A stretch of DNA of 26,876 bases from a virus (IMGVR_UViG_3300032516_000159:1-26876); one strand, 5' to 3'. Counted from the stretch's first letter, positions 659 to 26,095 are shown. Notes: generated by a model from the sequence alone, not told the origin. A program made the numbers and translations.

Positions 659-675
659 TAGCCACCGAACCTTTC

Positions 676-6600: not shown

Positions 6601-9600
6601 CCCCCGCGTGTCCTGTTTACCACCGCCAATCTCTACCCGTGGACCGCCGAACACGTTAGAAGCCGCCACCTTGAAACGGTCCATGTAATATGGCGAACCA
6701 ATTTGCCACTTCTCAATCACCTTCTCTGCTATACGAATCTCTTCCTTGGATAGCCCGAGCTTCTCGAGCCGCGGAGTAAGAATAACCGTGGCCCTAGCAG
6801 ATTCCTGAAAAGAGCGCTGCTTCAAATAGCCAGCACTAGGCACTATGCCGAACAGCTTCTTGCCCTGCTCAGCAGAAACAACGTCCAGAGGGCGCCCCGT
6901 AGAACCAGCATCGTACTGGTTTCCATAGAACGGATGCCCCTCAACGTCCCCTGCGGCCCGTAGAGCCTCCATTGTGTCCGGCGTCCGTTTAGCCCAGTCC
7001 GCATTCTTTAGATCAGCATCGATGTCGTAGACGGCCACTTCCGAACCGCGCAACTTTGACAGAACATTTGCAAGCCAACCCTTATCGTTCGTATTCTGCG
7101 CGTGGACCTTCATGGTGCCGCCTAGCACCAGTACCTCGGCCTCCGTCAAACACCCCCGTCCGGTTACGCACGTGCTTAGGATGCGGCTCACCGGCACCCG
7201 CACCGACATGACAACCCCACCCTTACCGAAGTCGCGTGCCACCTGCGGGCTTGTCGTCCACGACGAGATGGGCTGCATACGCACTTCCACGTCGCCGGTC
7301 TTCGGAACCGGGTACTTACCCTCGTGTGGCTCCTGCCCTCTAAACAGCGTGACGTGCGTAATGCCCTGCTCTTTGAACCATTCCTGCGTATGCTCGTACT
7401 CCCGACGAGCATAGAACTTATCCACAATACTCACATCCGGGATCGGTTGATCCGGCGTCACCATGTGTGAGATGCCGGCATCCGCTAGACCAAACTCCTC
7501 TTTGACAGCAAGTTGCGAGGCTACTGCACGCGGCAGATGGTCCCCCGACGTGGTAGCCCACATGTTGAGTTGACGTTGAACTTCCTTTTCCCATGGAAGC
7601 CGCGTCTCAGCATTCAGACCCTCACTCAAATCACGAATAATACCGAGCTTGACTTGCCCTCGCACATAATCGTTAGTCGCTCTCAGCTCGTTAACTTCGT
7701 ATTCCGGCAAGACGGCGTGGGCATTCGCGTAGGCCAGGAAGCCCTTCTCTAGCGCCGCTCGTTCCTGCTCCGATCCGCCTGGCTCAGAGGTCCACTGGTT
7801 CCCATAGAAGGGGTGGCCTTCGACGTCGCCGGCAGTTCTGGACTTTACCACGCGCAAAATCGTCGGGCGCCCGTTCTTAGTCTCTACCACCTGGAACGTG
7901 TGCCCCCGTCCTAGCAGTACTTCCTTTTCCCAACGGGCCTGCCCACCGAGCGCTCGCACCTTCTCCAACTTCTGAATAGCCCGCTCATACCTTCCGCGCA
8001 GGCCTGCCGGTCCCCCCGGACGTAGGTTATCGCGAAGGTCGGCCAACTTCACTTCAATAGCTAGCTGGTCCCCGCTCTGCTCGATGCGAGAGATGAAATC
8101 CCTGTACACCTCGCCGCGCTGCCGCGTAAGAATTTCAACGGAGTCGATAACCTTCGCAGGCACCCCTTCCGCCAGTAGCGTTTCCCGCGTGTGCGGCGTG
8201 TCCTCAATCGCGTCATGCAGCCAGGCCACCGGCTTCGCGGCATCCGATACACTGTCAACAACGCGAGAGACATGCTCAATGTAGAAAACACCCTGTCTAT
8301 CAACCTGCGTGGCATGGGCCTTCCGCGCAACGCCTTCGGCCGTGGCAGTCGCATCTCCGGACCCGCCCACCTGCCCCGGCCTCCCCGCATGTCCGAAGTT
8401 GCCGGAGCCGGGACCGCCGAGGGTGTGGATGGGGAATTTGGACTTTGATGCGAGATGCCGCCCGCTCCAGAATGCTTCGCCCTCAGAAGTCTGGCGTTGT
8501 TCTGGCGTCAACTTCTGCCCTGTAGCACCTTCAACGTGCTTGTACAACGTGGACGCTATGCCTTGCCGGCGATACCGACTATCTACGTGCAAATCCGAAC
8601 CAACCGATTTCTTTTTCTGTTGAAAGATGAAAACGCTACCTACTACGTTTTCTTTCGATACTCCTGCAGGCAACTTAGACCAATCCACCTTCACACGCGA
8701 CTCTATAAACTTCCATTTATTTGTCTCTGCCCCCGGCAGCAAGGCAAGTTCGACAGACTTCAAACCAAGAGCCGGATTGCCTACAAATGGAATCGAGTGA
8801 AAACGAAGTTGTGCTCCAACTTCGCCACCCTCTCCCGATCCCCCCACCTGTCCGGGGCGTCCTGCGTGGCCAAAGTTGCCGGAGCCGGGGCCACCGAGGG
8901 TGCGCACTGCACTCGAATCTATCACTCGGGCCTTGATCGAAATACCGAGCAGTCTGGCCGCAGCCGCCCGATGATTCCCATCAAGAATCTGTGTGATACC
9001 AGAGGTCTTCGTTACGACGATCTCGCCAATCTTCTCGGGGTTCCGAATGTAATCGTTCAGGATGTGGCGTTCAAGCGTCTTCTGACTCGAAACGAGCTGC
9101 TTCGAATCTATTTTCTCGACTGTAGCCCTACCGATTAACTCCCGCTTATTGGCGCCATTCAGTTCGAACCACCAGCCAGGGTTCCCGCCCGCCTCGATAT
9201 TGGACGAGCCCGAAATCGGATTAGTGATCCGCGGGGTAAGAGATTGGCCGACTTCCTTTTGGTTCTTGACCCAGTCCAGCGCGCTGTTCTTCGCCTCTTC
9301 GGAAATCACACCTCCCTGACTCCCCGGCACGTGCCCGTTCTCCGCGGTCCACCCACTACCGGGGCCGCCGAGGGTGCGCCACGCTTTTATCTCCTCGGGC
9401 TCAGCTTTCCGAACGCTTTTGATCCGAAAAAACTCAATCCCGCCCTCGTCTTGCTCCCGTGGCCCATACCTCGAATCGAACTCAATGATCAATCCAAACT
9501 TACGATCCGTCAGAGGCTGTGCGCCTAACGCCGTATAAGAAACATACTGGCCCATTCCTGGACCAGGCTTGAACCCATCTCGAAGAATTGCATCGGCATG

Positions 9601-9819: not shown

Positions 9820-12005
9820 TAGACCACCGGTTGAATACGCCTACTCTGTGGAACTACTTTTCCGTATGCGTTTGTCCAATCCCATTTCTTCTGCACGGAC
9901 TCCGCCGGCCCTGTGCGCGTCACCTTCGCATACGTGACACCGTCCCGCGTCTCAACAGACGTAACGCGGTACTTGCCCGTCGTCAGGTATTCTTTGGCGT
10001 CCTTGATCAGAGGCTTCCCCGAGTGTACCGGGAGCCCCTTGGCCTGAGATGCTTCGAACACCAGCACGACGGAGCTGCCGGCATGCCCGAGCTTTCCCCC
10101 GTACTCCCCTTTAGCAAACTGCGTGGCCAGGTCTTCTCGCGCTGTCCACGACGTCAGGCTCTCGCTAAACTCTGCCCCTGCTACGAAGGCCGTCGGGTCT
10201 ACCTTCAACCCCCTGTACAGTGGCATGTCCAACGGTTCTGTTTTCTCGATAGTCTCAAGTAGCAGCTTGGCGTTCTCGTATCGCTCCTTGTCGCTGCCCT
10301 TACAATCCGCACAGGCATAGTCTTTCTGGGGCTGCCCTTCAATCACAGCCCGCGCTGCATGCTGCATCTCGGACCAGTCGTACTCGCCCTCCGACCAACC
10401 TGTCACCAGCTCCTCGACGTGAGCCGCGGCGTCTGTCCACTGGTTCCCGTAGAACGGGTGCCCCTCAACATCCCCCGCCGCCCGCACAGAGATCGACCTG
10501 TTCCGCAGCTCCCTCTCCACAAGTGCGAGTTGATGCCCATTAGACTCCTGGTTGGCCATGTGGTGCTGGAGCTTATAGCGGAATACCCCCACAAGTTTCT
10601 GTAGATGCCAGTCTGACAACCGAAGCAGTATAGCGGCATCCACCTTCTTCCCGCCAAGAATAGCGCGCGACGTGCGATCCGCCTCGTGAGAAGAAAAGGA
10701 ACTTCCAGTAGTGTCCAGACCTTCATCCCACTGGTTGCCATAGAAGGGATGGCCGTACACGCCGCCGGCCATCCGAATCTGCGAATCCCTACCCTTCGAC
10801 GGACTGAACAGCACCTTCTCAATCGTCGTGGATTCTCCAACGAAGCGCTTGTCCCCGGTGTAGTTTGCCCCGAGGCCTGGCTTGAGGTAGGCCACACAGA
10901 TATGCGGGGTGTACGTCGGGTGTGTGTCCGTGACGGGCAGGGCCTCGGAGATCCGTTTGTTCAACTCCACAAGGTCCGGGCTGTCTACCGACACGTACAG
11001 CACATCGTATTCCTCACCCTCGAAACAGGCCGTCTTACCGAGCGCCAGGGACACAGCACCGAAGCCTTCCAGGACCGGACGTACCTTGTCCGCAGACGTT
11101 GTGTGCAAGCCGTATTTGACGGTGGCGTGAATTTCGTCTTCCCTGCCGTCGACCGCAAGATCCGCGTCCGGAATGGTCTGTCCGTAGGCCAGCACCTTAT
11201 CGGCCAGGGCTTCGGGGAGATTGACTTGTGTGCTGGAGTAGTCGTGTTGGAGGGCCTTCAGTCTGCTTAGCACAACCGCCACAAAAATAGAGCCACCGGA
11301 CTCGAGCACCTTTACGCGACTTCGCGCACCACCTGGCCCGGTGGCCACCATCCAGGCAGCTTTAATCCACTCCGGTTTGATGTCCCCCGCGAACGTCACA
11401 AGATTGCGATCAACCATATCCGTGTGACTGATGTTCATCTGGCTTTTCGCGGCGTCCGGAATCACAATCTCAAGCACCGCGACAGACTCGCGCCAAGGCG
11501 TATGATCAATGCCCCACTGTTCCGCTTCCTCCCGGCTTGTTGTGGCGTAGACAGTTCCTTGTGAGGAGAACAAAGAGGTTTCGCCAGCGTGGGAAGCCTT
11601 TAGCCCTTCTTTTAAGATCTGATTGAGCCGCGCCGTCGCTGTACCGTGGTAGGCCGTTGTGTCGCCTTCGGTGTATTGATTGCCATGGAACGCATGCCCA
11701 TCCCCCTCCCCAAGTGCCCTCGGCGCCTTAAACTTCATCGCATGCACATGCCCCGAGGCCAGGACGACCCTATGAAGCACCGGAATCAACGACTCCCGCA
11801 GACGTGCCGCCCACTGCTCTACGTGTGCGTTGTCCCACTCCGTCGGCAGCGAGGCCAGAAACGTCTTCTTCAGAGTGGCAACAGCGGCATCCGCAACGCC
11901 GTGGACGGGGAACTGTTTCTTGGCGGGAACCTTGGCATTCGCTCGCATCGACGCGAGCAGCAAGAACTTCGCAGCGACGCCCGGTTCGAGCGGGAGCTTA
12001 AGCAT
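9819..12005 (-). CDS. 728-residue tagged minor-head-like protein with two ART domains and a 2H phosphoesterase
   Basis: The ATG at 12005 overlaps the portal stop by 8 bases; the stop overlaps the giant gene's ATG by one base. Residues 1-102 are an unrecognised N-terminal region (MLKLPLEPGVAAKFLLLA...), probably structural. A tag at 103 (GHAFHGNQYT) leads into an H-Y type ART-like domain (H120 in TTAYHGT, Y153 in VYATTS). Residues about 250-412 are a 2H phosphoesterase-like domain. A tag at 418 precedes a small helical segment (SRAILGGKKVDAAILLRLSDW, about 430-508). A tag at 515 precedes a C-terminal ART with R598 in LYRGL, S619 in TSWTA and E672 in DAKEYL. The order of modules mirrors the giant protein next door, so the two were probably built from the same parts. 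Enzymatic targets are unknown. Confidence 0.9.
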   Translation of the reverse strand: MLKLPLEPGVAAKFLLLASMRANAKVPAKKQFPVHGVADAAVATLKKTFLASLPTEWDNAHVEQWAARLRESLIPVLHRVVLASGHVHAMKFKAPRALGEGDGHAFHGNQYTEGDTTAYHGTATARLNQILKEGLKASHAGETSLFSSQGTVYATTSREEAEQWGIDHTPWRESVAVLEIVIPDAAKSQMNISHTDMVDRNLVTFAGDIKPEWIKAAWMVATGPGGARSRVKVLESGGSIFVAVVLSRLKALQHDYSSTQVNLPEALADKVLAYGQTIPDADLAVDGREDEIHATVKYGLHTTSADKVRPVLEGFGAVSLALGKTACFEGEEYDVLYVSVDSPDLVELNKRISEALPVTDTHPTYTPHICVAYLKPGLGANYTGDKRFVGESTTIEKVLFSPSKGRDSQIRMAGGVYGHPFYGNQWDEGLDTTGSSFSSHEADRTSRAILGGKKVDAAILLRLSDWHLQKLVGVFRYKLQHHMANQESNGHQLALVERELRNRSISVRAAGDVEGHPFYGNQWTDAAAHVEELVTGWSEGEYDWSEMQHAARAVIEGQPQKDYACADCKGSDKERYENAKLLLETIEKTEPLDMPLYRGLKVDPTAFVAGAEFSESLTSWTAREDLATQFAKGEYGGKLGHAGSSVVLVFEASQAKGLPVHSGKPLIKDAKEYLTTGKYRVTSVETRDGVTYAKVTRTGPAESVQKKWDWTNAYGKVVPQSRRIQPVV
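9822..10433 (-). other. C-terminal ART domain, residues 525-728 of the 728-residue protein
   Basis: R598 (PLYRGLK), S619 (SLTSWTARED) and E672 (KDAKEYLTTGKYRV) occupy the R-S-E positions. Only the second Glu of ExE is present (A670-K671-E672), which makes Arg-specific transfer less likely. A pair of Cys (ACADCKGSD, about residues 562-565) precedes the core. Confidence 0.62.
10434..11699 (-). repeat. Three GHxFxGNQ[WY] tags in the 728-residue protein
   Basis: Tags start at residues 103, 418 and 515 (11670-11699, 10725-10754 and 10434-10463). They are GHAFHGNQYT, GHPFYGNQWD and GHPFYGNQWT. All follow an Arg seven to eight residues upstream (RALGEGD, RMAGGVY, RAAGDVE), as in the neighbouring proteins. 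Confidence 0.92.
10770..11258 (-). other. 2H phosphoesterase-like domain, residues 250-412 of the 728-residue protein
   Basis: Two H-x-T-type motifs sit at the expected distance: IHATVKYG (H293, T295) and YTPHICVAYLK (H368, with C370 where Thr/Ser is usual). The intervening ALPVTDTHPTYTPH and FGAVSLALGKTACFEGEEYDVLYVSV fit the two-lobed fold of LigT/Acb1-like enzymes, which open 2'-3' or cyclic phosphodiester bonds. The anti-CBASS nuclease Acb1 belongs to this superfamily and some members are fused to DUF1073 portals, the type encoded just upstream. An anti-CBASS role is inference. Confidence 0.68.
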
Positions 12006-15733: not shown

Positions 15734-15762
15734 AGCATATACGACTTCGTGTTCCGTGTCAA
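15734..15762 (-). promoter_or_regulatory. Strong sigma70-like promoter of the structural operon
   Basis: On the minus strand TTGACA (15757-15762) and TATGCT (15734-15739) are separated by exactly 17 bases. Transcription would start near 15727 and give a leader of about 50 bases before the ATG at 15676. It lacks the TGTGG found before the -10 of the early promoters, so it may belong to another timing class. Confidence 0.78.
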
Positions 15763-18366: not shown

Positions 18367-18499
18367 TTCTTATAGGGAGGTGGTCTGGCTACGGGCGGTA
18401 CAAGAAGGGTATACGCCCACAGTTCGCGCTATACGGACAACGCTGCAGGTTTAACGCCGTGCTCGGGAGAGCGGCGAAGCAACACTACCAAACAGGAAC

Positions 18500-18528
18500 A
18501 GTATACCACAAATTGTGTTGGAAGTCAA
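18500..18528 (-). promoter_or_regulatory. Promoter of the replication block (TTGACT-17-TATACT)
   Basis: TTGACT at 18523-18528 and TATACT at 18500-18505 with a 17-base spacer ending TTTGTGG, the same -35/TTCC/TGTGG/-10 plan as the early promoters. It lies between the end of the small-gene cluster (18584) and the YozE-like gene. The leader of about 140 bases between it and 18352 shows no gene I can support. Confidence 0.8.
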
Positions 18529-18583
18529 CTCCCTGGACGGGACTGTGCGATGGGCCAGGGCGGGCGGATGGCGGTAATGGCGT

Positions 18584-18838
18584 TCATAGGGGAAACTCAA
18601 TGTTAAATGAGATACGCTTTCCGGGCACGAACCGCGCGCAACACAGGTTTACGAACTCCTGGGAACAGCCGGCGAGGATGGTCCGAATCTCATCCTCCGA
18701 GTGTAGCGGGTCACTATCGAGTAGGGCCAGGATGCGGTTGGCCCCCGGAAACGGGGTAGCAGGGAAGGGGTTGTGCGGGAGGCCGTAGTGTTCAAATACG
18801 TTGACGGGCCCGCCATTGATGGTTACGACGATAGTCAC
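18584..18838 (-). CDS. Hypothetical protein, 84 residues
   Basis: GTG start at 18838 in a GTGA overlap with the gene before. Reads VTIVVTINGGPVNVFEHYGLPHNPFPATPFPGANRIL and ends CARFVPGKRISFNIEFPL. I recognise no family. A Pro-rich stretch and beta-strand-like ends suggest a small compact protein. It is the last gene of its operon before the promoter at 18500. Confidence 0.7.
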   Translation of the reverse strand: MTIVVTINGGPVNVFEHYGLPHNPFPATPFPGANRILALLDSDPLHSEDEIRTILAGCSQEFVNLCCARFVPGKRISFNIEFPL

Positions 18839-19149
18839 TTGGGCACCTCTGTCAGCATCTCCGACAGCATCCACCCGGTCAGGGACGCCTTGTCCTCGTG
18901 CTGGGTCTCGAAGCTGTTGAGAGCGGCCTTCCAGCAGAGCAGTTGCTGACGGCGAATTTGGGGGTCGTCGGAGCGCCATTTCCAGTTGGCCGTGGACCCA
19001 CCACCGTAGAAGACACTCATCGCGTACGTGGACCACGGGTTCTCGTAAGGCCGAAAGGCCTTTGGGATGTGCTTCACCAGCTCCAGTTCATTCGATAACC
19101 CACCGAGTGGACCGGGCGTGCCGGAGAAGAGCTGGGCAGTTTCGTTCAT
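18835..19149 (-). CDS. Hypothetical protein, 104 residues
   Basis: The ATG at 19149 forms an ATGA overlap with the gene before and has AAGAGG upstream; the frame extends further but without support. MNETAQLFSGTPGPLGGLSNELELVKHIPKAFRPYENPWSTYAMSVFYGGG... and QQLLCWKAALNSFETQHEDKASLTGWMLSEML. Aromatic-rich, no known motif. Confidence 0.72.
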   Translation of the reverse strand: MNETAQLFSGTPGPLGGLSNELELVKHIPKAFRPYENPWSTYAMSVFYGGGSTANWKWRSDDPQIRRQQLLCWKAALNSFETQHEDKASLTGWMLSEMLTEVPK

Positions 19150-19499
19150 GTCAACCTCTTCAGCAGGCCTTCCGCCTCTTCGAACGTGAGAAACAGACCA
19201 GGCATGAGACGGCCCGGTTCGCTTCCTCTGCCGGGCCGCCACACCGTGCCGCCGGCTCCAAGCTCCGTGGCCAGCGTCTTGGCGCGGTCCTTGATGGCGG
19301 TTTGTGAGGCAGCGCGCTGGGCGTTGGCGATCTTTACCTGCTCTACCTTGCGGAACACCCGATCAGGGTCGTGTTGTGTGCAGTAGTCCTTGCCGTCGAA
19401 ACGAACCGTGGCGTAGGAGGCGCATTGACGAAAGGTCCAATCGTCCAGGATGCTTTTGCTGCAGCGGATTTTGTTGCCGGCGGAGTCCTTAAGAACCAC
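19146..19499 (-). CDS. Cys/His-containing small protein, 117 residues
   Basis: GTG start at 19499 with GGGAGG six bases before it. The N-terminal half has C13, C24 (RQCAS) and YCTQH (C-x-x-H), a likely single zinc site (RCSKS...RQCASYATVRFDGKDYCTQHDP). The C-terminal half is charged with an Arg/Gln-rich helix (ANAQRAASQTAIKDRAK). Similar zinc-site proteins are common in phage early regions. Function unknown. Confidence 0.74.
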   Translation of the reverse strand: MVLKDSAGNKIRCSKSILDDWTFRQCASYATVRFDGKDYCTQHDPDRVFRKVEQVKIANAQRAASQTAIKDRAKTLATELGAGGTVWRPGRGSEPGRLMPGLFLTFEEAEGLLKRLT

Positions 19500-19671
19500 T
19501 AGATGCCTCCCTTAGCTTGCGGTTGTAGGCTCGAACGAAGGACCGGGCCTGTGCGACCCGCGCGAACCATGCCAGGTGTGTGGAACTTTCTTCCGGGTTA
19601 CGAGTGGACCCGAAGACGGCCCGTCCGTCTCGCAACCAGACTTCGTAAGCCCTTGGATTGCTGGTGATCAC
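19489..19671 (-). CDS. Hypothetical protein, 60 residues
   Basis: I choose the GTG at 19671 (GGAGGT seven bases upstream, one base after the previous stop), rather than an upstream ATG at 19734 that would overlap the preceding gene by 62 bases. Sequence VITSNPRAYEVWLRDGRAVFGSTRNPEE...AQARSFVRAYNRKLREASS, no known family. Ends 11 bases inside the next gene. Confidence 0.6.
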   Translation of the reverse strand: MITSNPRAYEVWLRDGRAVFGSTRNPEESSTHLAWFARVAQARSFVRAYNRKLREASSGS

Positions 19672-19672
19672 C

Positions 19673-19879
19673 TCAGTAACCTCCGCCTTCCGCCCGGTCG
19701 GCGCAAGCGTCGCACTGATAGCCAAGCGCGACATCCTTCGGCGTCAGCCGGTTCTTGGCCTTGCAGGTGGGGCAGGGGCGGTTGCGCGGGTTACTTTTGC
19801 TCGAGGCCCGGAGCGCACTGTTCCCACCGGGGTTAGCGAACTCGCTTCTATCGTCCCAGTCTCCGTCGAGGTCCCTCAT
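19673..19879 (-). CDS. Small zinc-ribbon protein, 68 residues
   Basis: Starts at ATG 19879 after GGTGGGAGGATCAG, the standard ribosome-site cassette here. Contains RPCPTCKAKNRL...GYQCDACADRA, two CxxC pairs that would bind one zinc. Residues 1-30 are acidic and then Asn/Ser rich. Function unknown. Confidence 0.75.
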   Translation of the reverse strand: MRDLDGDWDDRSEFANPGGNSALRASSKSNPRNRPCPTCKAKNRLTPKDVALGYQCDACADRAEGGGY

Positions 19880-19967
19880 CTGATCCTCCCACCAGAACCT
19901 CGTTGACACCTATCACGGTCGCTTCCGGCAGTGGCGTTAAGCGGCCGGGGCTTTCTTCCCCAGTAAC

Positions 19968-19996
19968 AGTATACCACAGAAGGGGCAGAAAGGCTA
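19968..19996 (-). promoter_or_regulatory. Promoter (TAGCCT-17-TATACT with TGTGG)
   Basis: TATACT at 19968-19973, spacer of 17 ending TCTGTGG, weak -35 TAGCCT at 19991-19996. A leader of about 80 bases precedes the ATG at 19879, longer than for its sister promoters. Confidence 0.65.
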
Positions 19997-20233
19997 GTCG
20001 TTGAAGACCGTGAGGGTGAACGCGCCGTCGTTGGTGTTGTAGACCTTGCCCGCGAACTCGCCGCGGTGGGTCATCTCTTTTGGGTGTCCAAAGAGGAACC
20101 CGTCGTTCCCGCTGTCGGTGACCGCGATCCAGTCCGGCCACTCACCGGGCGCGAGGCCCATTGTGCTGGCCTCACCGGTCAGCCCGACCTTGTCCTCGTT
20201 GAGGTGAACGAGCGATTTGTCGATCTTGATCAT
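19994..20233 (-). CDS. Hypothetical protein, 79 residues
   Basis: ATG at 20233 directly after the promoter-ribosome cassette; a longer frame would translate the cassette itself, so I exclude it. MIKIDKSLVHLNEDKVGLTGEASTMGLAPGEWPDWIAVTDSG... ending YNTNDGAFTLTVFND, likely all-beta. No family recognised. Confidence 0.75.
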   Translation of the reverse strand: MIKIDKSLVHLNEDKVGLTGEASTMGLAPGEWPDWIAVTDSGNDGFLFGHPKEMTHRGEFAGKVYNTNDGAFTLTVFND

Positions 20234-20250
20234 CTGATCCTCCCACCTAC

Positions 20251-20279
20251 ATATTACCATACTCGGGAGGGAATTACAA
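20251..20279 (-). promoter_or_regulatory. Promoter-ribosome cassette (TTGTAA-17-TAATAT)
   Basis: -10 TAATAT at 20251-20256, -35 TTGTAA at 20274-20279, then GGTGGGAGGATCAG and the ATG at 20233. The expected start leaves a leader of about 10-12 bases. The -35 contains the stop codon of the gene before (20274-20276). Confidence 0.75.
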
Positions 20280-20453
20280 CTTCTTTATCGGATACTGCCC
20301 TTCGTTCTGAAACAGCTTCTCCAAGGCCGGGGAGTGCTCGCGCATGGCCTTCTCCTGGCAGTCGAGGCACATTCTTCCGGTCCAAACGCTTAGATCACCC
20401 CACGGATATGGACGATGACAGACGGGGCACAGCTTTTCTGGTGTCCGAATCAT
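20274..20453 (-). CDS. Zinc-ribbon protein, 59 residues
   Basis: A short gene read on the minus strand from the ATG at 20453, in an ATGA overlap with the stop of the gene before. MIRTPEKLCPVCHRPYPWGD...GRMCLDCQEKAMREH, with C9, C12, C29 and C32 as a probable zinc site, ends FQNEGQYPIKKL. Function unknown. Confidence 0.72.
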   Translation of the reverse strand: MIRTPEKLCPVCHRPYPWGDLSVWTGRMCLDCQEKAMREHSPALEKLFQNEGQYPIKKL

Positions 20454-20644
20454 GTTGTCACCACCTCAATTGGAACTCCCGGCCAGTGTTTTTCCACGTA
20501 GCGTTCCGCGCCTCCGACTACGCACGTGAACGACACATCTAGGGTATCCGTGAACGGCCAGAGAGCCGCCGGTAAGTCTGTATGTAAGCTCACGATGTCG
20601 GCGTGGCCGGACCGGTGTAGGATAAAGATGGAGACGATTTTCAT
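20450..20644 (-). CDS. Hypothetical protein, 64 residues
   Basis: ATG at 20644 in a TGATG overlap with the previous stop (a GTG one codon earlier is also possible). MKIVSIFILHRSGHADIVSLHTDLPAALWPFTDTLDVSFTC...AERYVEKHWPGVPIEVVTT. An alternating strand-helix pattern is likely; no family recognised. Confidence 0.7.
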   Translation of the reverse strand: MKIVSIFILHRSGHADIVSLHTDLPAALWPFTDTLDVSFTCVVGGAERYVEKHWPGVPIEVVTT

Positions 20645-20967
20645 CACAGCTCCGCGATGGCCTTGTTCAGAAATCCAATGCAGCGCAACCGAATGGCGGC
20701 ATAAGCATCGTTGGCATCCTTGACGCGCTTGGCCACGTGCTCGTCCATGGCCTGTTTGCGCTCGGCAGCGTCGTTCTTGGCGTCGGCGAGGATCAGCTTG
20801 GCTTCCCTGTAGGCCTCGGCGGGCATCTTGGCCATCGGTGAGAAGTCGTTGCGGATGTCCGAGGCCACCTGCTCACGGATGCCTCGGAGCCACGGTCCCA
20901 GGTAACTGTCCCGTGGGAACTTCGCGGCGAACTCGTCGAAGAGTACCATCTCCTGTGCTTTGGTCAT
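20644..20967 (-). CDS. Helical hypothetical phage protein, 107 residues
   Basis: ATG at 20967 overlaps the previous stop (TGATG). MTKAQEMVLFDEFAAKFPRDSYLGPWLRGIREQVASDIRNDF, then a long Ala/Lys/Asp-rich helix likely to form a coiled coil (AKLILADAKNDAAERKQAMDEHVAKRVKDANDAY). Proteins with the FPRDSYLGPWL-type start recur in phage early regions. Function unknown. Confidence 0.75.
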   Translation of the reverse strand: MTKAQEMVLFDEFAAKFPRDSYLGPWLRGIREQVASDIRNDFSPMAKMPAEAYREAKLILADAKNDAAERKQAMDEHVAKRVKDANDAYAAIRLRCIGFLNKAIAEL

Positions 20968-21188
20968 CACCTCTCCTCGTCGCGATATCTCTTGCCATCT
21001 GGGTGCTGCCCACCGCCTGTGCTGTTGTGGCGCTTCGGGGCGTGCTTGGAGCACTGCTTCTCGGGCGTGTAGTCCCCCTTTGGCACCTCGTCGATGGTGG
21101 AACAGATGCCCTTCGTGGGCATTGAAAGAGTGCGTCCGGTGACTTCGTCCCAATAGTGAGCTTTCGTGCCCACACGACAGATTCTCAT
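20967..21188 (-). CDS. Hypothetical protein, 73 residues
   Basis: ATG at 21188 after GGGAGG. MRICRVGTKAHYWDEVTGRTLSMPTKGICSTIDEVPKGDYTPEKQCSKHAPKRHNSTGGG... Three Cys and several His but no clear zinc pattern. Basic C-terminus. Confidence 0.68.
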   Translation of the reverse strand: MRICRVGTKAHYWDEVTGRTLSMPTKGICSTIDEVPKGDYTPEKQCSKHAPKRHNSTGGGQHPDGKRYRDEER

Positions 21189-21206
21189 TGCTAACCTCCC
21201 ACTACC

Positions 21207-21235
21207 AGTATACCATTAGGCGGTCACTTCGTCCA
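21207..21235 (-). promoter_or_regulatory. Promoter (TGGACG-17-TATACT)
   Basis: TATACT at 21207-21212 and TGGACG at 21230-21235, spacer 17 ending AATGG. The -35 sits inside the last codons of the upstream gene (ending 21216). A GGGAGG ribosome site follows within about 20 bases. Confidence 0.65.
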
Positions 21236-22121
21236 GGACTTTTGCCTTCCGCGGCCTGCTGAAGAACGCGAACGACGGGTCGGCCCCATGTCTGAAGTTG
21301 GCTGTGAACTCGATTTCCCGTCCCTTTACGTCCCCGTCGAGCTGCGCGGGGCAGGTGCCCCACGCCAACCAGATCCCGTCCGGGGTATCCACCTTGACCG
21401 TCATCCGCAGGGTCGTGCCGTAGAAGCCGTCCTGCGTCTTGAGGCTGATCACCTTGCCCTTTACCGTGAGCCCGTCGCCCTCCGGGGCCGGCGCCTTCTT
21501 CTCGGCGGCCGGCGGGTTGCGCACCTCATCCGCCAGCTTGAAGGCGAACTCGATCTGCTTCTCGGAGAGATCGCACCACTGGGTGAACCGCCCAGCCATG
21601 TCCTTGAGGATCGGGTGGTCCAGTTTGAGCGCCTCCTCGAGGCCAGGGTGCTCCGCCAGGAACTTCGCACGCTCGCTGGCTTTGAGTGCCTTGAGCTGCT
21701 CGGTGGCCGCGCTCCGTCTCAACCGCATGATGGTCAGATCCCACTCGCTTCGGTCGGCCAGCATCTGATACTTGTCGGCGCAGTCGTGACCGACGTGGAG
21801 CAGGAGGCCCGTGGGTGTGTGCCGCCAGATGTCCCCGTAGATGTAGTGCGTGGAGCAGATGGAGCAGCGGCCGGTGCTGCCGGTCTCGACGAACTTCTGG
21901 GTCTGGCGCATCCGAAGGACGCAGCACATTCCGGAGTCCTGGTGCTTACCGTTGACGATCTTGCCGTCCACTTCGTGGCGGTAGTCCAGTTCGCAGTTGA
22001 CCCCCCAGGAGGGAATCGGCCAACCGTCCTGCGAGGTGCTCAGGTTATAGGAGCGAACGTAGCTGTAGTTTGCTGGGATAATGGCTCCCGGCCGGTGAAT
22101 GTCGCTTCGGTTCGTGGCCAT
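21216..22121 (-). CDS. Zinc-site protein with OB-like C-terminus, 301 residues
   Basis: ATG at 22121 after the promoter cassette. N-terminal segment has C-x-x-C (GRCSICSTHYIYGDIW) and LLLHVGHDCADKYQ, a C-C-H-C zinc site. A helical middle part (SERAKFLAEHPGLEEALKLDHPILKDMAGRFTQW..SEKQIEFAFKLADE) and a Pro/Ala linker follow. The end (LTVKGKVISLKTQDGFYGTTLRMTVKVDTPDGIWLAWGTCP...FFSRPRKAKVL) looks like an OB-type beta barrel seen in many phage early proteins. A role in nucleic acid binding is likely but unproven. Confidence 0.82.
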   Translation of the reverse strand: MATNRSDIHRPGAIIPANYSYVRSYNLSTSQDGWPIPSWGVNCELDYRHEVDGKIVNGKHQDSGMCCVLRMRQTQKFVETGSTGRCSICSTHYIYGDIWRHTPTGLLLHVGHDCADKYQMLADRSEWDLTIMRLRRSAATEQLKALKASERAKFLAEHPGLEEALKLDHPILKDMAGRFTQWCDLSEKQIEFAFKLADEVRNPPAAEKKAPAPEGDGLTVKGKVISLKTQDGFYGTTLRMTVKVDTPDGIWLAWGTCPAQLDGDVKGREIEFTANFRHGADPSFAFFSRPRKAKVLDEVTA

Positions 22122-22141
22122 CTGTCTTACCTCCCACCTAC

Positions 22142-22170
22142 ATATTACCACAAAGGGCATCGGAAGTCCA
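22142..22170 (-). promoter_or_regulatory. Promoter-ribosome cassette (TGGACT-17-TAATAT)
   Basis: -35 TGGACT at 22165-22170, spacer TCCGATG...TTTGTGG, -10 TAATAT at 22142-22147, then GGTGGGAGGTAAGACAG before the ATG at 22121. Confidence 0.8.
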
Positions 22171-22175
22171 CGACT

Positions 22176-22391
22176 TTACGACCACGAAATGAGATCTCGG
22201 AGCTGCTCGATTCTGTAGGCGAGGCCCTGGAGTTCGCTGGCCTTGCCGCCGAGGTTGAATCCGAAGTGGTTGGACACCTTGTCGGCGGCTAGTTCAGCGG
22301 TGGCCTGCTCGGCGATCTGCCGCAGCTCCTCGCGGTACTGCCGGCGCAGCTTCTCCTGCTCGGCCATAAGATTCGCTTTCTGAAGTGCCAT
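22176..22391 (-). CDS. Small helical protein, 71 residues
   Basis: ATG at 22391. MALQKANLMAEQEKLRRQYREELRQIAEQATAELAADKVSNHFGFNLGGKASELQGLAYRIEQLRDLISWS. Strong coiled-coil-like heptads over residues 8-35 and 50-66. No family recognised. Confidence 0.75.
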   Translation of the reverse strand: MALQKANLMAEQEKLRRQYREELRQIAEQATAELAADKVSNHFGFNLGGKASELQGLAYRIEQLRDLISWS

Positions 22392-22408
22392 CTGATCCTC
22401 CCACCTAC

Positions 22409-22437
22409 ATATTACCACAAAAGGTATCGGAAGTCCA
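22409..22437 (-). promoter_or_regulatory. Promoter-ribosome cassette (TGGACT-17-TAATAT)
   Basis: -35 TGGACT at 22432-22437, -10 TAATAT at 22409-22414, spacer TCCGATACC...TTGTGG. The GGTGGGAGGATCAG ribosome site ends at the ATG 22391. Confidence 0.8.
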
Positions 22438-22443
22438 GCGATC

Positions 22444-22632
22444 TTATGCCATCTCGATCAGCAGCTCCTCCGCGCCGTAGACCATCGGCAGGTCGCAGTG
22501 TTCGCACTTATAGCCCCTGGCATTGGGTTCCACGCCGTAAGCCTTCTTGCCGCAAGCCTTACAGAAGCCAACGTACTCGCCGGACTTTGCTGCCCGGAGC
22601 ACTCGGTTGAGGGTGAGCGATTTGTGAACCAT
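22444..22632 (-). CDS. Zinc-ribbon protein, 62 residues
   Basis: ATG at 22632 after a promoter cassette. MVHKSLTLNRVLRAAKSGEYVGFCKACGKKAYGVEPNARGYKCEHCDLPMVYGAEELLIEMA, with two CxxC pairs as in rubredoxin-like ribbons. Function unknown. Confidence 0.78.
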   Translation of the reverse strand: MVHKSLTLNRVLRAAKSGEYVGFCKACGKKAYGVEPNARGYKCEHCDLPMVYGAEELLIEMA

Positions 22633-22650
22633 TGCTGTCCTCCCACCTAC

Positions 22651-22679
22651 ATATTACCACAATCCGATGCGGAAGGCTA
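22651..22679 (-). promoter_or_regulatory. Promoter-ribosome cassette (TAGCCT-17-TAATAT)
   Basis: -10 TAATAT at 22651-22656, spacer of 17 (TTCCGCATCGGATTGTGG region), weak -35 TAGCCT at 22674-22679, which overlaps the stop codon of the gene before (22677-22679). Confidence 0.7.
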
Positions 22680-23063
22680 GGGAAAATCCATCCTCCGCTC
22701 TCGGCGCTCTTCTTCTTCTACTGGGTCGTAGTCCGGCTCGTCGTCTTCCTCCGGCCCTTCCCCGTAATCGTTTGGCTCGTAGGTCTCCGCCCACGTTTCG
22801 GCTGCGGCCACGACAGACGCAGGGATATTTTCACCGACTAGCGGCGTCCCCCACTCTCCATCGATATCGATGGCGGCGCTCTTGATTTCCCAGCGCCGTT
22901 CGTCCTCCGCGGTAACGTCGTGGCCACGATTGCCGTCCGCGTCGCAGTCAGCGTTGGCATCGTGGAACCATCCGATCGTTAGCGTGCCGGAAATGAGCCA
23001 GAGGCTGAAGCCGACGCTTAGCTCCTGCTCTTCGACGGTGTGTTTGGTTTGCCAGGTGTTCAT
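22677..23063 (-). CDS. Acidic hypothetical protein, 128 residues
   Basis: ATG at 23063 in an ATGA overlap with the gene before. MNTWQTKHTVEEQELSVGFSLWLISGTLTIGWFHDANADCDADG..., then ETWAETYEPNDYGEGPEEDDEPDYDPVEEEE and a basic end (RRERRMDFP). The acidic tail is unusual among its neighbours. Family not recognised; a DNA-mimic or binding role is only speculation. Confidence 0.72.
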   Translation of the reverse strand: MNTWQTKHTVEEQELSVGFSLWLISGTLTIGWFHDANADCDADGNRGHDVTAEDERRWEIKSAAIDIDGEWGTPLVGENIPASVVAAAETWAETYEPNDYGEGPEEDDEPDYDPVEEEERRERRMDFP

Positions 23064-23407
23064 GATGTAAATACCTCAACAGGCTTGCCAGCTTTGGTGG
23101 CTATTTTCACCATGTTAGCCGTGCCTTTGGACGCGGCGATGTTGGTGTGGAACGCCAGCACACGGTCGGGCTTGGCGTTCAGCATGGCCAGGTTACGCAA
23201 TGGGCCGGCAGCGCGACCGAAGTGTGCCCAGTCGGCAGGAAACCGCTCGACGGACAGCCCGAGGGCCAGTGCTTCTTCACGCGCTATGGTGTCGGCACCG
23301 CGGGCTTCGCCTTCGATGATAATGGTGCCGGCGGGCAGTTTGGCCAGTTCGCGGCGGATGGCCGCCCGGTTGAACCAGTTGCGATCGCCACAGACGAGCA
23401 CGCGCAT
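23060..23407 (-). CDS. DUF2493/SLOG-type nucleotide-binding protein, 115 residues
   Basis: I start at ATG 23407 after GGGAGGG. MRVLVCGDRNWF...IIIEGEARGADTIAREEALALGLSVERFPADWAHFGRAAGPLRNLAML...VLAFHTNIAASKGTANMVKIATKAGKPVEVF follows the DUF2493 pattern (GDRxW, GxarGAD, FpADW..GraAGPxRN, GT). This Rossmann-like family belongs to the SLOG superfamily that senses or processes nucleotide signals. Its phage role is unknown. Confidence 0.86.
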   Translation of the reverse strand: MRVLVCGDRNWFNRAAIRRELAKLPAGTIIIEGEARGADTIAREEALALGLSVERFPADWAHFGRAAGPLRNLAMLNAKPDRVLAFHTNIAASKGTANMVKIATKAGKPVEVFTS

Positions 23408-23425
23408 TGGAACCCTCCCGACCAC

Positions 23426-23454
23426 AGTATACTATATTTCTTTCTTGATGCCTA
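23426..23454 (-). promoter_or_regulatory. Possible promoter (TAGGCA-17-TATACT)
   Basis: TATACT at 23426-23431 is followed by TGTGG and the GGGAGGG ribosome site of the DUF2493 gene. The -35 match TAGGCA (23449-23454) is poor and lies in the end of the gene before, so confidence is lower than for sister sites. Confidence 0.45.
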
Positions 23455-23650
23455 AGGCTTTTTGCATCTCAGGAGACAAGGGCCGAAATCGCACGAAGGC
23501 GATGCCGTTGACACAGCACCACACCTGGCCGTTGCTAGCGATGTGCACGCCGAAGTCGGCGCACTGCAGGTCCATCTCCTGGATGAGCGCGAGGTTCTCG
23601 ATGCCGACAGCGCCCTGCCAGTGCTTCTCAGGGAAGGTGCGTTGCGCCAT
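23432..23650 (-). CDS. Hypothetical protein, 72 residues
   Basis: ATG at 23650, one base after the previous stop; the frame continues upstream but overlaps the preceding gene, so I reject that. MAQRTFPEKHWQGAVGIENLALIQEMDLQCADFGVHIASNGQVWCCVNGIAFVRFRPLSPEMQKALGIKKEI. Beta-rich middle. No family recognised. Confidence 0.7.
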   Translation of the reverse strand: MAQRTFPEKHWQGAVGIENLALIQEMDLQCADFGVHIASNGQVWCCVNGIAFVRFRPLSPEMQKALGIKKEI

Positions 23651-23651
23651 A

Positions 23652-24038
23652 TCAATCCCAGTACTGCGTTCCGAGTTTCGTGGGTGTGCGCCCGGCTGCG
23701 CGATCGACGTATTCCTGGTAGTAGGCATCCGATGCCGGCACGCTCTCTCCACTGCTGTCCGCCGGCTTGCCCAGACCGAGTAACGTGCCCAGCTCTTCAC
23801 GGTCGGATGGGCCCATACCGCTGCCCGGTTTACCAGTGTCGAAGGACTCGTAGACGGCCTGCGACGTCGGAGAGCGGGAACCGTAGACCTCCCGATACTC
23901 CCAGGTGCGGCGGGAAGGCGGGGCGGTGATGCGGATCCAGCCCCAAGCCGTGCCCTGTCCGCCAGTGACACTCCACGTTTTCTTGCTACGGTTTTTGAGG
24001 CTGGCCTTGATGCTGGCGATGGTCTCGTTGCGGTCCAT
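23652..24038 (-). CDS. Hypothetical protein, 128 residues
   Basis: ATG at 24038 after AAGAGGAACAGC. MDRNETIASIKASLKNRSKKTWSVTGGQGTAWGWIRITAPPSRRTWEYREV, then a Ser/Gly-rich part with SDREELGTLLGLGKPADSSGESVPAS and YYQEYVDRAAGRTPTKLGTQYWD. The WSVTGGxGTAWGWIxI start recurs in small phage proteins of unknown role. Starts inside the zinc-knuckle gene before it. Confidence 0.75.
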   Translation of the reverse strand: MDRNETIASIKASLKNRSKKTWSVTGGQGTAWGWIRITAPPSRRTWEYREVYGSRSPTSQAVYESFDTGKPGSGMGPSDREELGTLLGLGKPADSSGESVPASDAYYQEYVDRAAGRTPTKLGTQYWD

Positions 24039-24165
24039 GCTGTTCCTCTTTCCCACAGTCTTCGATGAACTCGTTGGTGCATTTCTGACACAGGCCTTCT
24101 TCCGCCATGTCGGACCCGTGAGAGTTTGCCCCACAGCGTTCGCAGATCAGGGGTTCAGACGTCAT
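23986..24165 (-). CDS. Small zinc-knuckle protein, 59 residues
   Basis: ATG at 24165 in an ATGA overlap with the gene before. MTSEPLICERCGANSHGSDMAEEGLCQKCTNEFIEDCGKE, with two CxxC pairs (C8, C11, C26, C29). The last 17 codons overlap the next gene out of frame, so the exact C-terminal end is less certain in function. Confidence 0.6.
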   Translation of the reverse strand: MTSEPLICERCGANSHGSDMAEEGLCQKCTNEFIEDCGKEEQHGPQRDHRQHQGQPQKP

Positions 24166-24401
24166 GGCTCCCATCTTCCTGCCGGTGCCGGCTTCTCCTG
24201 CCCCATCAGCTCGTGGATGCTGGTGCCCTCCACGGTGACCTTGCCGATCCCGTAGGCGTCCACCGCGTAACCGAAGGTCTCGCCGATGTCGAACGGGCTT
24301 CCAATGCGCCGTTTGGCATAAGCCTGAGCGCCCTTGAGTGTTTTGAACTTCCGCGTCTCGGAGAAGTGATCGATTGTGCGGAAGCGAACTGTGATGTTCA
24401 T
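24162..24401 (-). CDS. Hypothetical protein, 79 residues
   Basis: ATG at 24401 after a promoter cassette (GGGAGGGTCAG). MNITVRFRTIDHFSETRKFKTLKGAQAYAKRRIGSPFDIGETFGYAVDAYGIGKVTVEGTSIHELM. Starts with a strand and a helix (AQAYAKRRIG) in the pattern of small phage proteins with FKTLxGAxxYA. No function known. Confidence 0.76.
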   Translation of the reverse strand: MNITVRFRTIDHFSETRKFKTLKGAQAYAKRRIGSPFDIGETFGYAVDAYGIGKVTVEGTSIHELMGQEKPAPAGRWEP

Positions 24402-24418
24402 CTGACCCTCCCAATTAC

Positions 24419-24447
24419 ACTTTACCACGATCCGCATCGGAAGTCCA
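24419..24447 (-). promoter_or_regulatory. Promoter-ribosome cassette (TGGACT-17-TAAAGT)
   Basis: -35 TGGACT at 24442-24447, spacer TCCGATGCGG...CGTGG, -10 TAAAGT at 24419-24424. The -35 and spacer code for the last residues (LDFRCGSW) of the gene before, and the stop TAA is part of the -10. Confidence 0.65.
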
Positions 24448-24883
24448 GCGATTTAACCTTCGACACTTCGGTTGGTCCGGTCCACGTCAACAGGTGGTTC
24501 TTCTCGGTGACGAGCCCGGTACGCTTCAGACTGTCGATGACGCGTGTATAGGCGTCGAGGTTCAGAAAGTTCATCACGCGGGCATACAGGTGACCGCTCG
24601 GCACGCTGCCGAGCTCGCGGAGGGCCTCGGCCACGGTCTTGATAATCTCGACCGCGGCTTGCTCTGGTGTCAGTAGTTTCGGGTAGCAACACTCAGAGCA
24701 GATGAGCTGGCCGCGCTCGGACATCTGCATCGGGTAAGGGAATGTGCAACTGCAGTATCTGGGATTCACCTCTTGCTCCTTCTTACAGCCGGGACACGGC
24801 TCATTCTCGCACCCTCCGCATTTGTCCGGCGTGCTTGGGCAGAATACGATGACGCCTGCGTCGTTACAGGTCTCGCACATCAT
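24422..24883 (-). CDS. Cys-rich zinc-binding protein with helical C-terminus, 153 residues
   Basis: ATG at 24883 (a second ATG follows at once). The first 70 residues carry more than a dozen Cys in CxxC-type pairs (CETC, CGGCENEPCPGC, YCSCTF, CSECCYP), enough for two or three zinc sites. The C-terminal half (LTPEQAAVEIIKTVAEALRELG, YARVMNFLNLDAYTRVIDSLKRTGLVTEKNHLLTW) resembles a winged-helix fold. A DNA-binding regulator is plausible. Confidence 0.76.
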   Translation of the reverse strand: MMCETCNDAGVIVFCPSTPDKCGGCENEPCPGCKKEQEVNPRYCSCTFPYPMQMSERGQLICSECCYPKLLTPEQAAVEIIKTVAEALRELGSVPSGHLYARVMNFLNLDAYTRVIDSLKRTGLVTEKNHLLTWTGPTEVSKVKSLDFRCGSW

Positions 24884-25044
24884 CTGTCCACTACCTGATC
24901 AAAGAGTCTCCGCCACCCAACCCCGGCCCAGTATTCCGGATCGTCGTCGTAAGCCGCGAGCATCCGCGTCCTCACGTTGTCCCGGTCCTCGGGGTCCGGG
25001 AACTCGTGCTCGAGCCAGGCTTCGAGGTGTTCGAGGGTGGTCAC
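24880..25044 (-). CDS. Small acidic protein, 54 residues
   Basis: Read on the minus strand from the GTG at 25044, in a GTGA overlap with the gene before, and ending in an ATGA overlap with the next. VTTLEHLEAWLEHEFPDPEDRDN..RMLAAYDDDPEYWAGVGWRRLFDQVVDR. Both coupled ends support it. No family recognised. Confidence 0.7.
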   Translation of the reverse strand: MTTLEHLEAWLEHEFPDPEDRDNVRTRMLAAYDDDPEYWAGVGWRRLFDQVVDR

Positions 25045-25325
25045 TTGTTCCTCGCAGCCAGCATCGCATCGACGTATCGATACGAGTAAAGGGCGACAGT
25101 GACATCTGCCGTTCCGTCCTTGATCTCCCTGCGTGTGACGGCTTGAAGTAGTTCCGGATTCGCAAGCAGTCCGATGAGCGCTGCCTTGGCGAACTCATCA
25201 CGTAACACGTCGGCTACCTGCTCTGCCTCGAATCGCAGGTCATCACTGATGTCCTGGTGCCCTCCGGGAAGTGAGTCAAGCTTGTCCGCCGCACGGATCA
25301 AAAGCGCCTTCAGTTCTGGTGTCAC
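25041..25325 (-). CDS. Hypothetical protein, 94 residues
   Basis: GTG start at 25325, GTGA overlap with the gene before. MTPELKALLIRAADKLDSLPGGHQDISDDLRFEAEQVADVLRDEFAKAALIGLLANPELLQ...TADVTVALYSYRYVDAMLAAR. Mostly helical. No family recognised. Confidence 0.72.
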   Translation of the reverse strand: MTPELKALLIRAADKLDSLPGGHQDISDDLRFEAEQVADVLRDEFAKAALIGLLANPELLQAVTRREIKDGTADVTVALYSYRYVDAMLAARNK

Positions 25326-25492
25326 GATTCAACCTCCTGCTGGTTAAGCCGACGGCACACCGCCCACGCCTGCCGGTGCGTCTTGAATGTTTTCCGCATG
25401 TCGAGCTCAGTCCCCCGGCGTAGATACCAGCCGACCGGCGACCCACAGAGCGCCACGTAGTCGGTTGGCCAGACGCGAAAGGGCACCCACAT
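25322..25492 (-). CDS. Hypothetical protein, 56 residues
   Basis: ATG at 25492 in a TGATG overlap with the gene before, preferred over a longer frame that would overlap 42 bases more. MWVPFRVWPTDYVALCGSPVGWYLRRGTELDMRKTFKTHRQAWAVCRRLNQQEVES. Aromatic-rich N-terminus; the end suggests a helix after a short strand. Confidence 0.68.
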   Translation of the reverse strand: MWVPFRVWPTDYVALCGSPVGWYLRRGTELDMRKTFKTHRQAWAVCRRLNQQEVES

Positions 25493-25782
25493 CACAGGCT
25501 CGTTTCTAGGCCGGTAAGCTGCGTGAACACCCACCGCAAGTCTTCTGCGTAGACGTCCTCGACCGTGCCGCGGTTCTTGACCTCGAACTTGGACACGCGG
25601 AAGGCCTCCACTGTGTAGGTGTCTGTCGGATCCAGCGTGATCCGAATCTTGTTCGGAGCACTGGGAAGTGGCAGAGCGAACTGCAACCCGTTGTCCAGGG
25701 CCAAGAGCTTAGACGCCCCCGTCATGGCCAGGAACCGACTGCCGCCAAGCTGCGCGAGAATGACCTGAGCGATGCTACCCAT
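25492..25782 (-). CDS. Conserved phage protein, 96 residues
   Basis: I start at ATG 25782, which overlaps the previous stop by 8 bases. MGSIAQVILAQLGGSRFLAMTGASKLLALDNGLQFALP...NKIRITLDPTDTYTVEAFRVSKFEV...VEDVYAEDLRWVFTQLTGLETSL. The plan (LGGxRFxAMTGA, then IRITLDPTDTYxVE, then VYAExLxxVFTxxTGL) is one I recognise as widespread among phages of many hosts, with unknown function. Confidence 0.8.
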   Translation of the reverse strand: MGSIAQVILAQLGGSRFLAMTGASKLLALDNGLQFALPLPSAPNKIRITLDPTDTYTVEAFRVSKFEVKNRGTVEDVYAEDLRWVFTQLTGLETSL

Positions 25783-25981
25783 CGTCTTCCGCCTCTCCAA
25801 ATTCGTTTGTGATCCGAGCGCACAGATCGAGGAGATCCTTGCGGGCCGTCATTTCGTCGTGGCTCAGAGCATCCGCACCGTGGTCCGTCTGCTCCTGAAT
25901 GCCGTCCTCGCACATGGCTCGGTAGCAGTCTCGCAGGTCGGACAAGGTGTTCTGGAATCTGCAGTAGCTCATGTTGCTCAT
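25775..25981 (-). CDS. Conserved small phage protein, 68 residues
   Basis: ATG at 25981 after the promoter cassette. MSNMSYCRFQNTLSDLRDCYRAMCEDG...SHDEMTARKDLLDLCARITNEFGEAEDDG. The MSYCRFxNTxxDLxDC start is common in small phage and prophage proteins. Function unknown. Helical with an acidic end. Confidence 0.78.
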   Translation of the reverse strand: MSNMSYCRFQNTLSDLRDCYRAMCEDGIQEQTDHGADALSHDEMTARKDLLDLCARITNEFGEAEDDG

Positions 25982-25998
25982 CTGATCCTCCCACCTAC

Positions 25999-26027
25999 AT
26001 ATTACCACAATTCGTATCGGAACACAA
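25999..26027 (-). promoter_or_regulatory. Promoter-ribosome cassette (TTGTGT-17-TAATAT)
   Basis: -10 TAATAT at 25999-26004, spacer TCCGATACG...TTGTGG, -35 TTGTGT at 26022-26027, then GGTGGGAGGATCAG and the ATG at 25981. Confidence 0.75.
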
Positions 26028-26060: not shown

Positions 26061-26095
26061 AACCTGTGGAAATCCCTGTGGAACCTGTGGAAATC
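26061..26095. repeat. Short direct repeats containing CCTGTGGAA
   Basis: AACCTGTGGAAATC occurs at 26061-26074 and 26082-26095, and CCTGTGGAA three times (26063, 26075, 26084). The reverse complement ATTTCCACA differs from the DnaA-box consensus TTWTNCACA at one position. The rest of the 150 bases between 26028 and 26180 shows no gene I can support. Confidence 0.5.

Follow-up and report, generated by a model that had tools for sequence, protein, structure and literature searches.

Ten near-identical promoter sites, most fused to a ribosome site, between small genes of an uncultivated virus

Results

A dispersed promoter family in the viral record

The window analyzed here is the complete 26,876-base IMG/VR record IMGVR_UViG_3300032516_000159:1-26876, which is classed linear and, given this class, is probably a genome fragment of a tailed phage. 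Its called genes lie on the minus strand. About 28 small, putatively early genes run from right to left between 26843 and 18584, and they are followed leftward by replication-type genes (Prim-Pol and AAA-ATPase), a small terminase-like gene, the large terminase and the portal; beyond the portal lie a 728-amino-acid (aa) protein and then a 3047-aa protein with head-morphogenesis domains. Dispersed among the small genes are short elements with the layout of a promoter (-35 hexamer, spacer, -10 hexamer), most of them joined to a ribosome site (Table 1). An original prediction, made from this sequence alone, had listed nine such promoters. We found all nine in place on the minus strand, each with an exact 17-base spacer, and added a tenth member at 23431 that was absent from that list.

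The individual elements vary more than had been described. The spacer, expected to end in TGTGG in most copies, does so at six of the ten sites, the others having CGTGG, TATGG, AATGG or TATAG. TGGACT serves as the -35 hexamer three times and TGGACG and TTGACT once each, and the weaker variants are TAGCCT (two sites), TTGTGT, TTGTAA and TAGGCA (one each). The -10 hexamer is TAATAT or TATACT at nine sites, as proposed, and TAAAGT at 24424.

We scanned the whole window with a leave-one-out matrix, built ten times from nine sites and applied to the tenth, and each site scored higher than any of the 53,642 other positions on the two strands. As this matrix leaves out the Shine-Dalgarno stretch apart from the G at the predicted transcription start (+1), the ranking is independent of the ribosome site. 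With the full matrix, the best non-site scored 10.2 and the weakest true site 21.2, which argues against matches being equally common inside genes. Short patterns are likewise far more frequent than in dinucleotide shuffles: the minus strand has 7 copies of TRTGGTAWWNT, where shuffles give 0.10 for the two strands together, TGG followed by TAATAT or TATACT occurs 8 times (0.11 in shuffles), and TGGGAGGATCAGATG occurs 4 times (0.00 in shuffles). The observation that the ten sites form one promoter family therefore holds.

Table 1. Members of the promoter family and the separate ribosome-site half. In the text, sites are referred to by the first base of the -10 hexamer (plus-strand coordinates). 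Leader lengths are in nucleotides (nt); bp, base pairs.
Element	Coordinates	Strand	-10 first base	Predicted +1	Sequence features	Downstream gene	Predicted leader (nt)
Cassette 1	25979..26027	-	26004	25992	TTGTGT-17-TAATAT, then GGGAGGATCAG, ATG; carries TTCCGATAC	25981-25775	11
Cassette 2	24399..24447	-	24424	24412	TGGACT-17-TAAAGT, then GGGAGGGTCAG, ATG; carries TTCCGATGCGGA	24401-24162	11
Cassette 3	23405..23454	-	23431	23419	TAGGCA-17-TATACT without TG, GGGAGG, ATG	23407-23060 (YspA/SLOG-like)	12
Cassette 4	22630..22679	-	22656	22644	TAGCCT-17-TAATAT, GGGAGG, ATG; TCCGCATCGGA in spacer	22632-22444	12
Cassette 5	22389..22437	-	22414	22402	TGGACT-17-TAATAT, GGGAGGATCAG, ATG; carries TTCCGATAC	22391-22176	11
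Cassette 6	22119..22170	-	22147	22135	TGGACT-17-TAATAT, GGGAGG, ATG; carries TTCCGATGC	22121-21216	14
Cassette 7	21186..21235	-	21212	21200	TGGACG-17-TATACT, GGGAGG, ATG; upstream-gene stop TAA inside spacer	21188-20967	12
Cassette 8	20231..20279	-	20256	20244	TTGTAA-17-TAATAT, GGGAGGATCAG, ATG	20233-19994	11
Promoter 9	19961..19996	-	19973	19961	TAGCCT-17-TATACT, no directly fused ribosome site		82
Promoter 10	18493..18528	-	18505	18493	TTGACT-17-TATACT, best -35/-10 match	18352-18134, Prim-Pol (18137-17304), AAA-ATPase (17311-16109)	at least 141
Ribosome-site half	19877..19893	-			GGTGGGAGGATCAG-ATG without adjacent promoter; GGTGGGAGGATCAG spans 19893-19880 and lies 80 bp downstream from promoter 9 (19973)	19879-19673	

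The sites have the grammar of extended -10 promoters

Across the ten sites, the mean match to TTGACA was 3.8 of 6 positions at a spacing of 17 bases and 0.6-2.3 at spacings of 10-16 and 18-25, and the maximum reached by 20,000 random sets of ten positions, at spacings of 15-19, was 2.8. The peak was unchanged (3.86 at 17) when only one of the four near-identical copies was kept. In the -35 hexamer, the first base is T and the third is G in 10/10 sites; TGG precedes the -10 hexamer in 9/10 and TRTG in 7/10, with site 23431 lacking the TG. The family thus shows both features of the sigma70 extended -10 class, a TGn upstream of a TATAAT-like -10 hexamer and a -35-like hexamer about 17 bp away.

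The original prediction held that the TGTGG bases are superfluous for sigma70 and may be recognized by a phage regulator. This part of the proposal is not supported. The extended -10 element consists of TGn at -15 to -13, together with TRTG at -17 to -14 in Gram-positive promoters (PMC2613000), and the TGTGG of the window, read as T-17 G-16 T-15 G-14 n-13, occupies this position. Because TGTGG is the extended -10 element of a sigma70-type RNA polymerase, no phage regulator is needed to account for it. The TRTG at -17 to -14, the TATAAT-like -10, the 17-bp spacer and a compensated weak -35 are all shared with ordinary extended -10 promoters of sigma70 and sigmaA, in which the extended element is able to make up for a poor -35 (PMC2613000).

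Loci elsewhere in IMG/VR also bear on this assignment. We collected those in which GGAGG lies 2-10 bases after TGTGGTAATATGT or TGTGGTATACTGT, which gave 19 non-redundant loci chosen solely on TGTGGTAATAT/TATACT plus GGAGG, the -35 being left out of the choice. A -35 with at least 5 of 6 matches stands at exactly 17 bases in 7 of these 19 loci, and in 0-1 at any other spacing. The composite of an extended -10 and a near ribosome site therefore occurs singly elsewhere, where it resembles an ordinary promoter. The window stands apart in the multiplication of this composite: unlike ordinary extended -10 promoters, it is present in about ten near-identical copies in 7.5 kb, merged with the ribosome site.

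These results also speak to whether a phage-encoded sigma factor or RNA polymerase reads the sites. Such an enzyme would fit a family confined to this virus in the collections searched, but both the elements and their spacing are those of housekeeping sigma70, and unrelated viruses carry this composite together with TTGACA. Family searches of the contig recognized no sigma or polymerase gene, which is weak evidence given that the contig is a fragment. We consider a dedicated phage enzyme very improbable.

Promoters are joined to ribosome sites at gene junctions

Seven bases past the last base of the -10 hexamer there is a G at 10/10 sites, including the two that have no fused ribosome site. 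This invariance makes the G the likely +1, and at eight sites the predicted +1 is the first G of GGGAGG. The ribosome-site sequence had been described as following the -10 hexamer immediately in several copies; we found the full GGTGGGAGGATCAG at three sites (26004, 22414 and 20256), after the three bases GTA, and GGGAGG at 8/10. Leaders of about 10-12 bases, also part of the prediction, are supported by the sequence at these eight sites (predicted lengths of 11-14 nt), the other two promoters having longer ones (Table 1). The leaders of promoters 9 and 10 showed unconvincing structure (z-scores of -0.31 and -1.70) and no Rfam match.

The placement of the sites follows the spacing of the genes. 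Eighteen of the 28 early junctions abut or overlap (gap of at most 1 base) and contain no site, and a site is present at every one of the 10 junctions where the gap is 10 bp or more. Several promoters reach into the preceding reading frame: at 24424, gene 24883-24422 upstream ends with the TAA of the -10 hexamer; at 22656 and 19973, the preceding gene ends with the TAG of the -35; and at 20256, the TAA stop of the preceding gene forms part of the -35. Three of the closest copies also have a TAA within about 10 bases before the -35, which at 24424 is out of frame. Across the four closest copies, identity is 75-100% in the functional blocks, in comparison to 21% upstream of -30 and 27% in the downstream coding sequence, which is the background level. 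With flanks at background identity, the repeated unit is the linker itself and not a duplicated gene.

A unit bounded by a stop codon and a start codon, set between unrelated coding flanks, might also be a translation or recombination linker, homogenized by recombination, whose promoter activity is incidental; the ribosome-site-only copy at 19893-19877 fits this explanation. However, the promoters at 18505 and 19973 lack the fused ribosome site, copies that have otherwise diverged still keep the exact -35/17/-10 grammar and its invariant T and G, and in unrelated loci the same extended -10 comes with a -35 at 17 bases. A linker with only incidental promoter activity is, in our assessment, improbable.

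A TCCGAT block is conserved in a subset of the sites

The original prediction also proposed that a phage regulator may recognize the repeated TCCGAT. This suspicion has some basis, as the block is conserved beyond its surroundings and is not accounted for by sigma70. It is 100% identical in four sites (26004, 24424, 22414 and 22147), as opposed to 50% for the six spacer bases that come after it and 21-33% for the upstream flank, and site 26004 retains TTCCGATAC despite its altered -35. Spacer positions 1 and 8 are T and C, respectively, in 9/10 sites. A repressor or activator that binds TTCCGATRC, or the dyad TCCG-N3-CGGA, in the spacer beside the -35 would co-regulate a subset of the promoters, and the perfect dyad TCCGNNNCGGA has both of its window occurrences at family sites, 24424 and 22656, in the same register.

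On the other side, TCCGAT is present in only 4/10 sites and is unenriched in the window (19 occurrences versus 13.4 in shuffles), and a search of IMG/VR by pattern for promoters arranged with TTCCGAT/TGGACTTCCG yielded chance-like matches only. No DNA-binding regulator was recognized among the small early proteins or elsewhere in the contig, which is a fragment. Recent common ancestry of the four copies also accounts for the conservation, and because there are only four related copies, ancestry and selection are inseparable here. Spacer inverted repeats were no better than those of shuffled spacers (P ~0.26 for two dyads), and we rejected the dyad as an operator on this ground. We likewise rejected an ATCG/CGAT inverted repeat seen by eye around the -35, as its spacing differs between copies (8 or 9 bases). 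Overall, we regard control by a phage regulator as possible but unlikely. A combined proposal, in which TTCCGATRC would be the operator of an unrecognized phage regulator that switches a subset of linkers, and the linker a mobile stop-to-start unit that brings in regulated, translatable early genes, likewise appears unlikely.

The family in other viruses and related systems

Sequence searches found no second virus carrying the promoter family in the collections covered. The exact consensus TRTGGTAATATGTAGGTGGGAGG had no match in IMG/VR, TGTGGTAATATGTAGGTGGGAGG had none in GTDB genomes, and a distant BLAST search with a 54-bp cassette against annotated phages gave weak chance matches only. The window has no near DNA relative in the phage collection, and IMG/VR yielded no close relatives by the early protein 22121-21216 or by Prim-Pol 18137-17304. 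A looser pattern was absent from 25 full records of relatives, its single match being in L107, a record included for other reasons. Three matches of TGTGGTATACTGT...GGAG in record G007 were rejected as a second example, as they are part of a larger dispersed repeat, rich in GC, whose flank, as far as read, contains no start codon. A GC-rich dispersed repeat of about 100 bp with TGTGGTATACTGTCCCCGGGGAGG, unrelated to the window family, is present in L092, L101 and L106 (IMGVR_UViG_3300006217_002199); it occurs in three copies with no adjoining start codon in the flanks read.

The nearest known systems are the dispersed host-sigma early promoters, or mobile cassettes, of T4-type phages and the start-associated sequences (SAS) of cluster K mycobacteriophages. 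T4-type phages reportedly carry near-identical host-sigma early promoters dispersed between small genes, proposed to aid gene shuffling, and these cassettes are said to pair the promoter with a stem-loop terminator. A passage of PMC4177764 cites them as early-promoter "mobile regulatory cassettes" (Arbiol et al. 2010). Like these, the window cassette is common to unrelated flanking genes, with blocks at 75-100% identity and flanks and coding sequence at 21-27%. Unlike the T4-type cassettes as commonly described, those of the window have no terminator that we could find and fuse the promoter to a Shine-Dalgarno sequence. The early, host-takeover region of Bacillus phage SPO1 contains many strong host-sigma promoters with TRTG and strong ribosome sites, serving small genes; compared with that general description, the window is marked out by its predicted leaders of 11-14 nt. 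In cluster K, the SAS (SAS/ESAS) is GGGATAGGAGCCC, with or without 17-bp inverted repeats (PMC3203893, PMC12699233). The window family resembles the SAS in being dispersed, mostly in one orientation, a few bases before the start codons of non-structural genes, and in including the ribosome site. Unlike the SAS, it has GGTGGGAGGATCAG or variants with TAATAT/TATACT upstream and not GGGATAGGAGCCC, and it is a -35/-10 promoter plus GGGAGG and has no such inverted repeats.

Other features of the window

The early gene 23407-23060 (minus strand) encodes a YspA/cpYpsA-related protein of the SLOG family (Pfam YAcAr, E 2e-12). Cassette 1 is preceded by a gap of 199 bp, in which three short direct repeats, T/GTTCCACAGG, lie at 26063-26093 (minus strand; starts at 26093, 26084 and 26072); they are possible iterons or a possible origin. 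A candidate promoter for the late genes, TTGACA-17-TATGCT (10/12 match, without TG), lies at 15734-15762 (minus strand) upstream of the small-terminase-like gene and is unlike the early family. At the equivalent place in the closest relative, L006 (near 4005-4040), TTGACT and TATAAT stand about 19 bases apart.

The 3047-aa protein (676-9819, minus strand) looks like a multi-domain polyprotein. It contains DRAT-type ADP-ribosyltransferase stretches (E 3e-15), a GNAT acetyltransferase, a metal-dependent phosphohydrolase (phrog_990) and portal/Mu-F-like head morphogenesis pieces, with an intein splicing domain at residues ~1739-2069 that splits the Mu-F-like region. The 728-aa protein (9819-12005, minus strand) has a 2'-5' RNA ligase-like domain (Pfam E 3e-7, above cut-off) and a sub-threshold match to the anti-CBASS protein Acb1 (E 0.0016). 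Between domains of these two proteins, a 58-nt repeat encoding the motif (E/G)GHPF(Y/H)GNQW(T) occurs 12 times (522-11719, minus strand), possibly as a processing or packaging signal.

Discussion

We propose that the window carries a multiplied stop-promoter-Shine-Dalgarno-start linker that is read by the host polymerase and would give each early mini-operon its own promoter; with start points and activity predicted from sequence, we place the probability of this reading at about 0.82. Ten co-directional housekeeping (sigma70/sigmaA) promoters would split the early region into about ten mini-operons, each holding one to six small genes. Every promoter combines a weak-to-fair -35 and a 17-base spacer with a TAATAT/TATACT -10 that is extended, in most cases by TRTGn. 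Transcription from eight of them would start at the G of GGGAGG, so that the first transcribed bases would be the Shine-Dalgarno sequence in a leader of 11-14 nt. The unit, spanning the stop codon of one gene to the start codon of the next, would have multiplied between unrelated genes, presumably by recombination. Upon infection, host RNA polymerase would read all ten promoters without a phage activator, and each early mini-operon would gain both its own promoter and a strong ribosome site. The position of the replication-type Prim-Pol and AAA-ATPase genes downstream of the last promoter also fits this proposal.

Several observations weigh against this proposal. Nine of the ten sites have a -35 hexamer with just 3-4 consensus bases, and some of these hexamers overlap stop codons. 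The rule that sites occupy the wider junctions follows partly from a promoter needing room. No minus-strand terminator-like site lies in the cassette gaps and the overall count of intrinsic terminators equals that of shuffles, so read-through would blur separate mini-operons. The family is absent from 80 terminase relatives, and its conservation across phages is thus not demonstrable. Finally, a proteobacterial host is suggested, as a hint and not as proof, by the large terminase, which shares about 60% identity with proteins from other uncultivated phages and from Cupriavidus and Inquilinus genomes, and by terminase relatives that sit in Cupriavidus, Inquilinus and Afipia genomes.

The linker family represents, in an unusually tidy variant, the known phage strategy of dispersed promoter cassettes, and it illustrates that additional motif bases such as TGTGG are not in themselves a sign of a new regulator. 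If our proposal is correct, the linker would be a minimal natural expression unit that, within about 50 bp, ends one gene, starts transcription, supplies a ribosome site and starts the next gene. It would offer a clean test of ribosome loading on a 5'-terminal Shine-Dalgarno sequence in an 11-nt leader, and also a test of how phages add small early genes.

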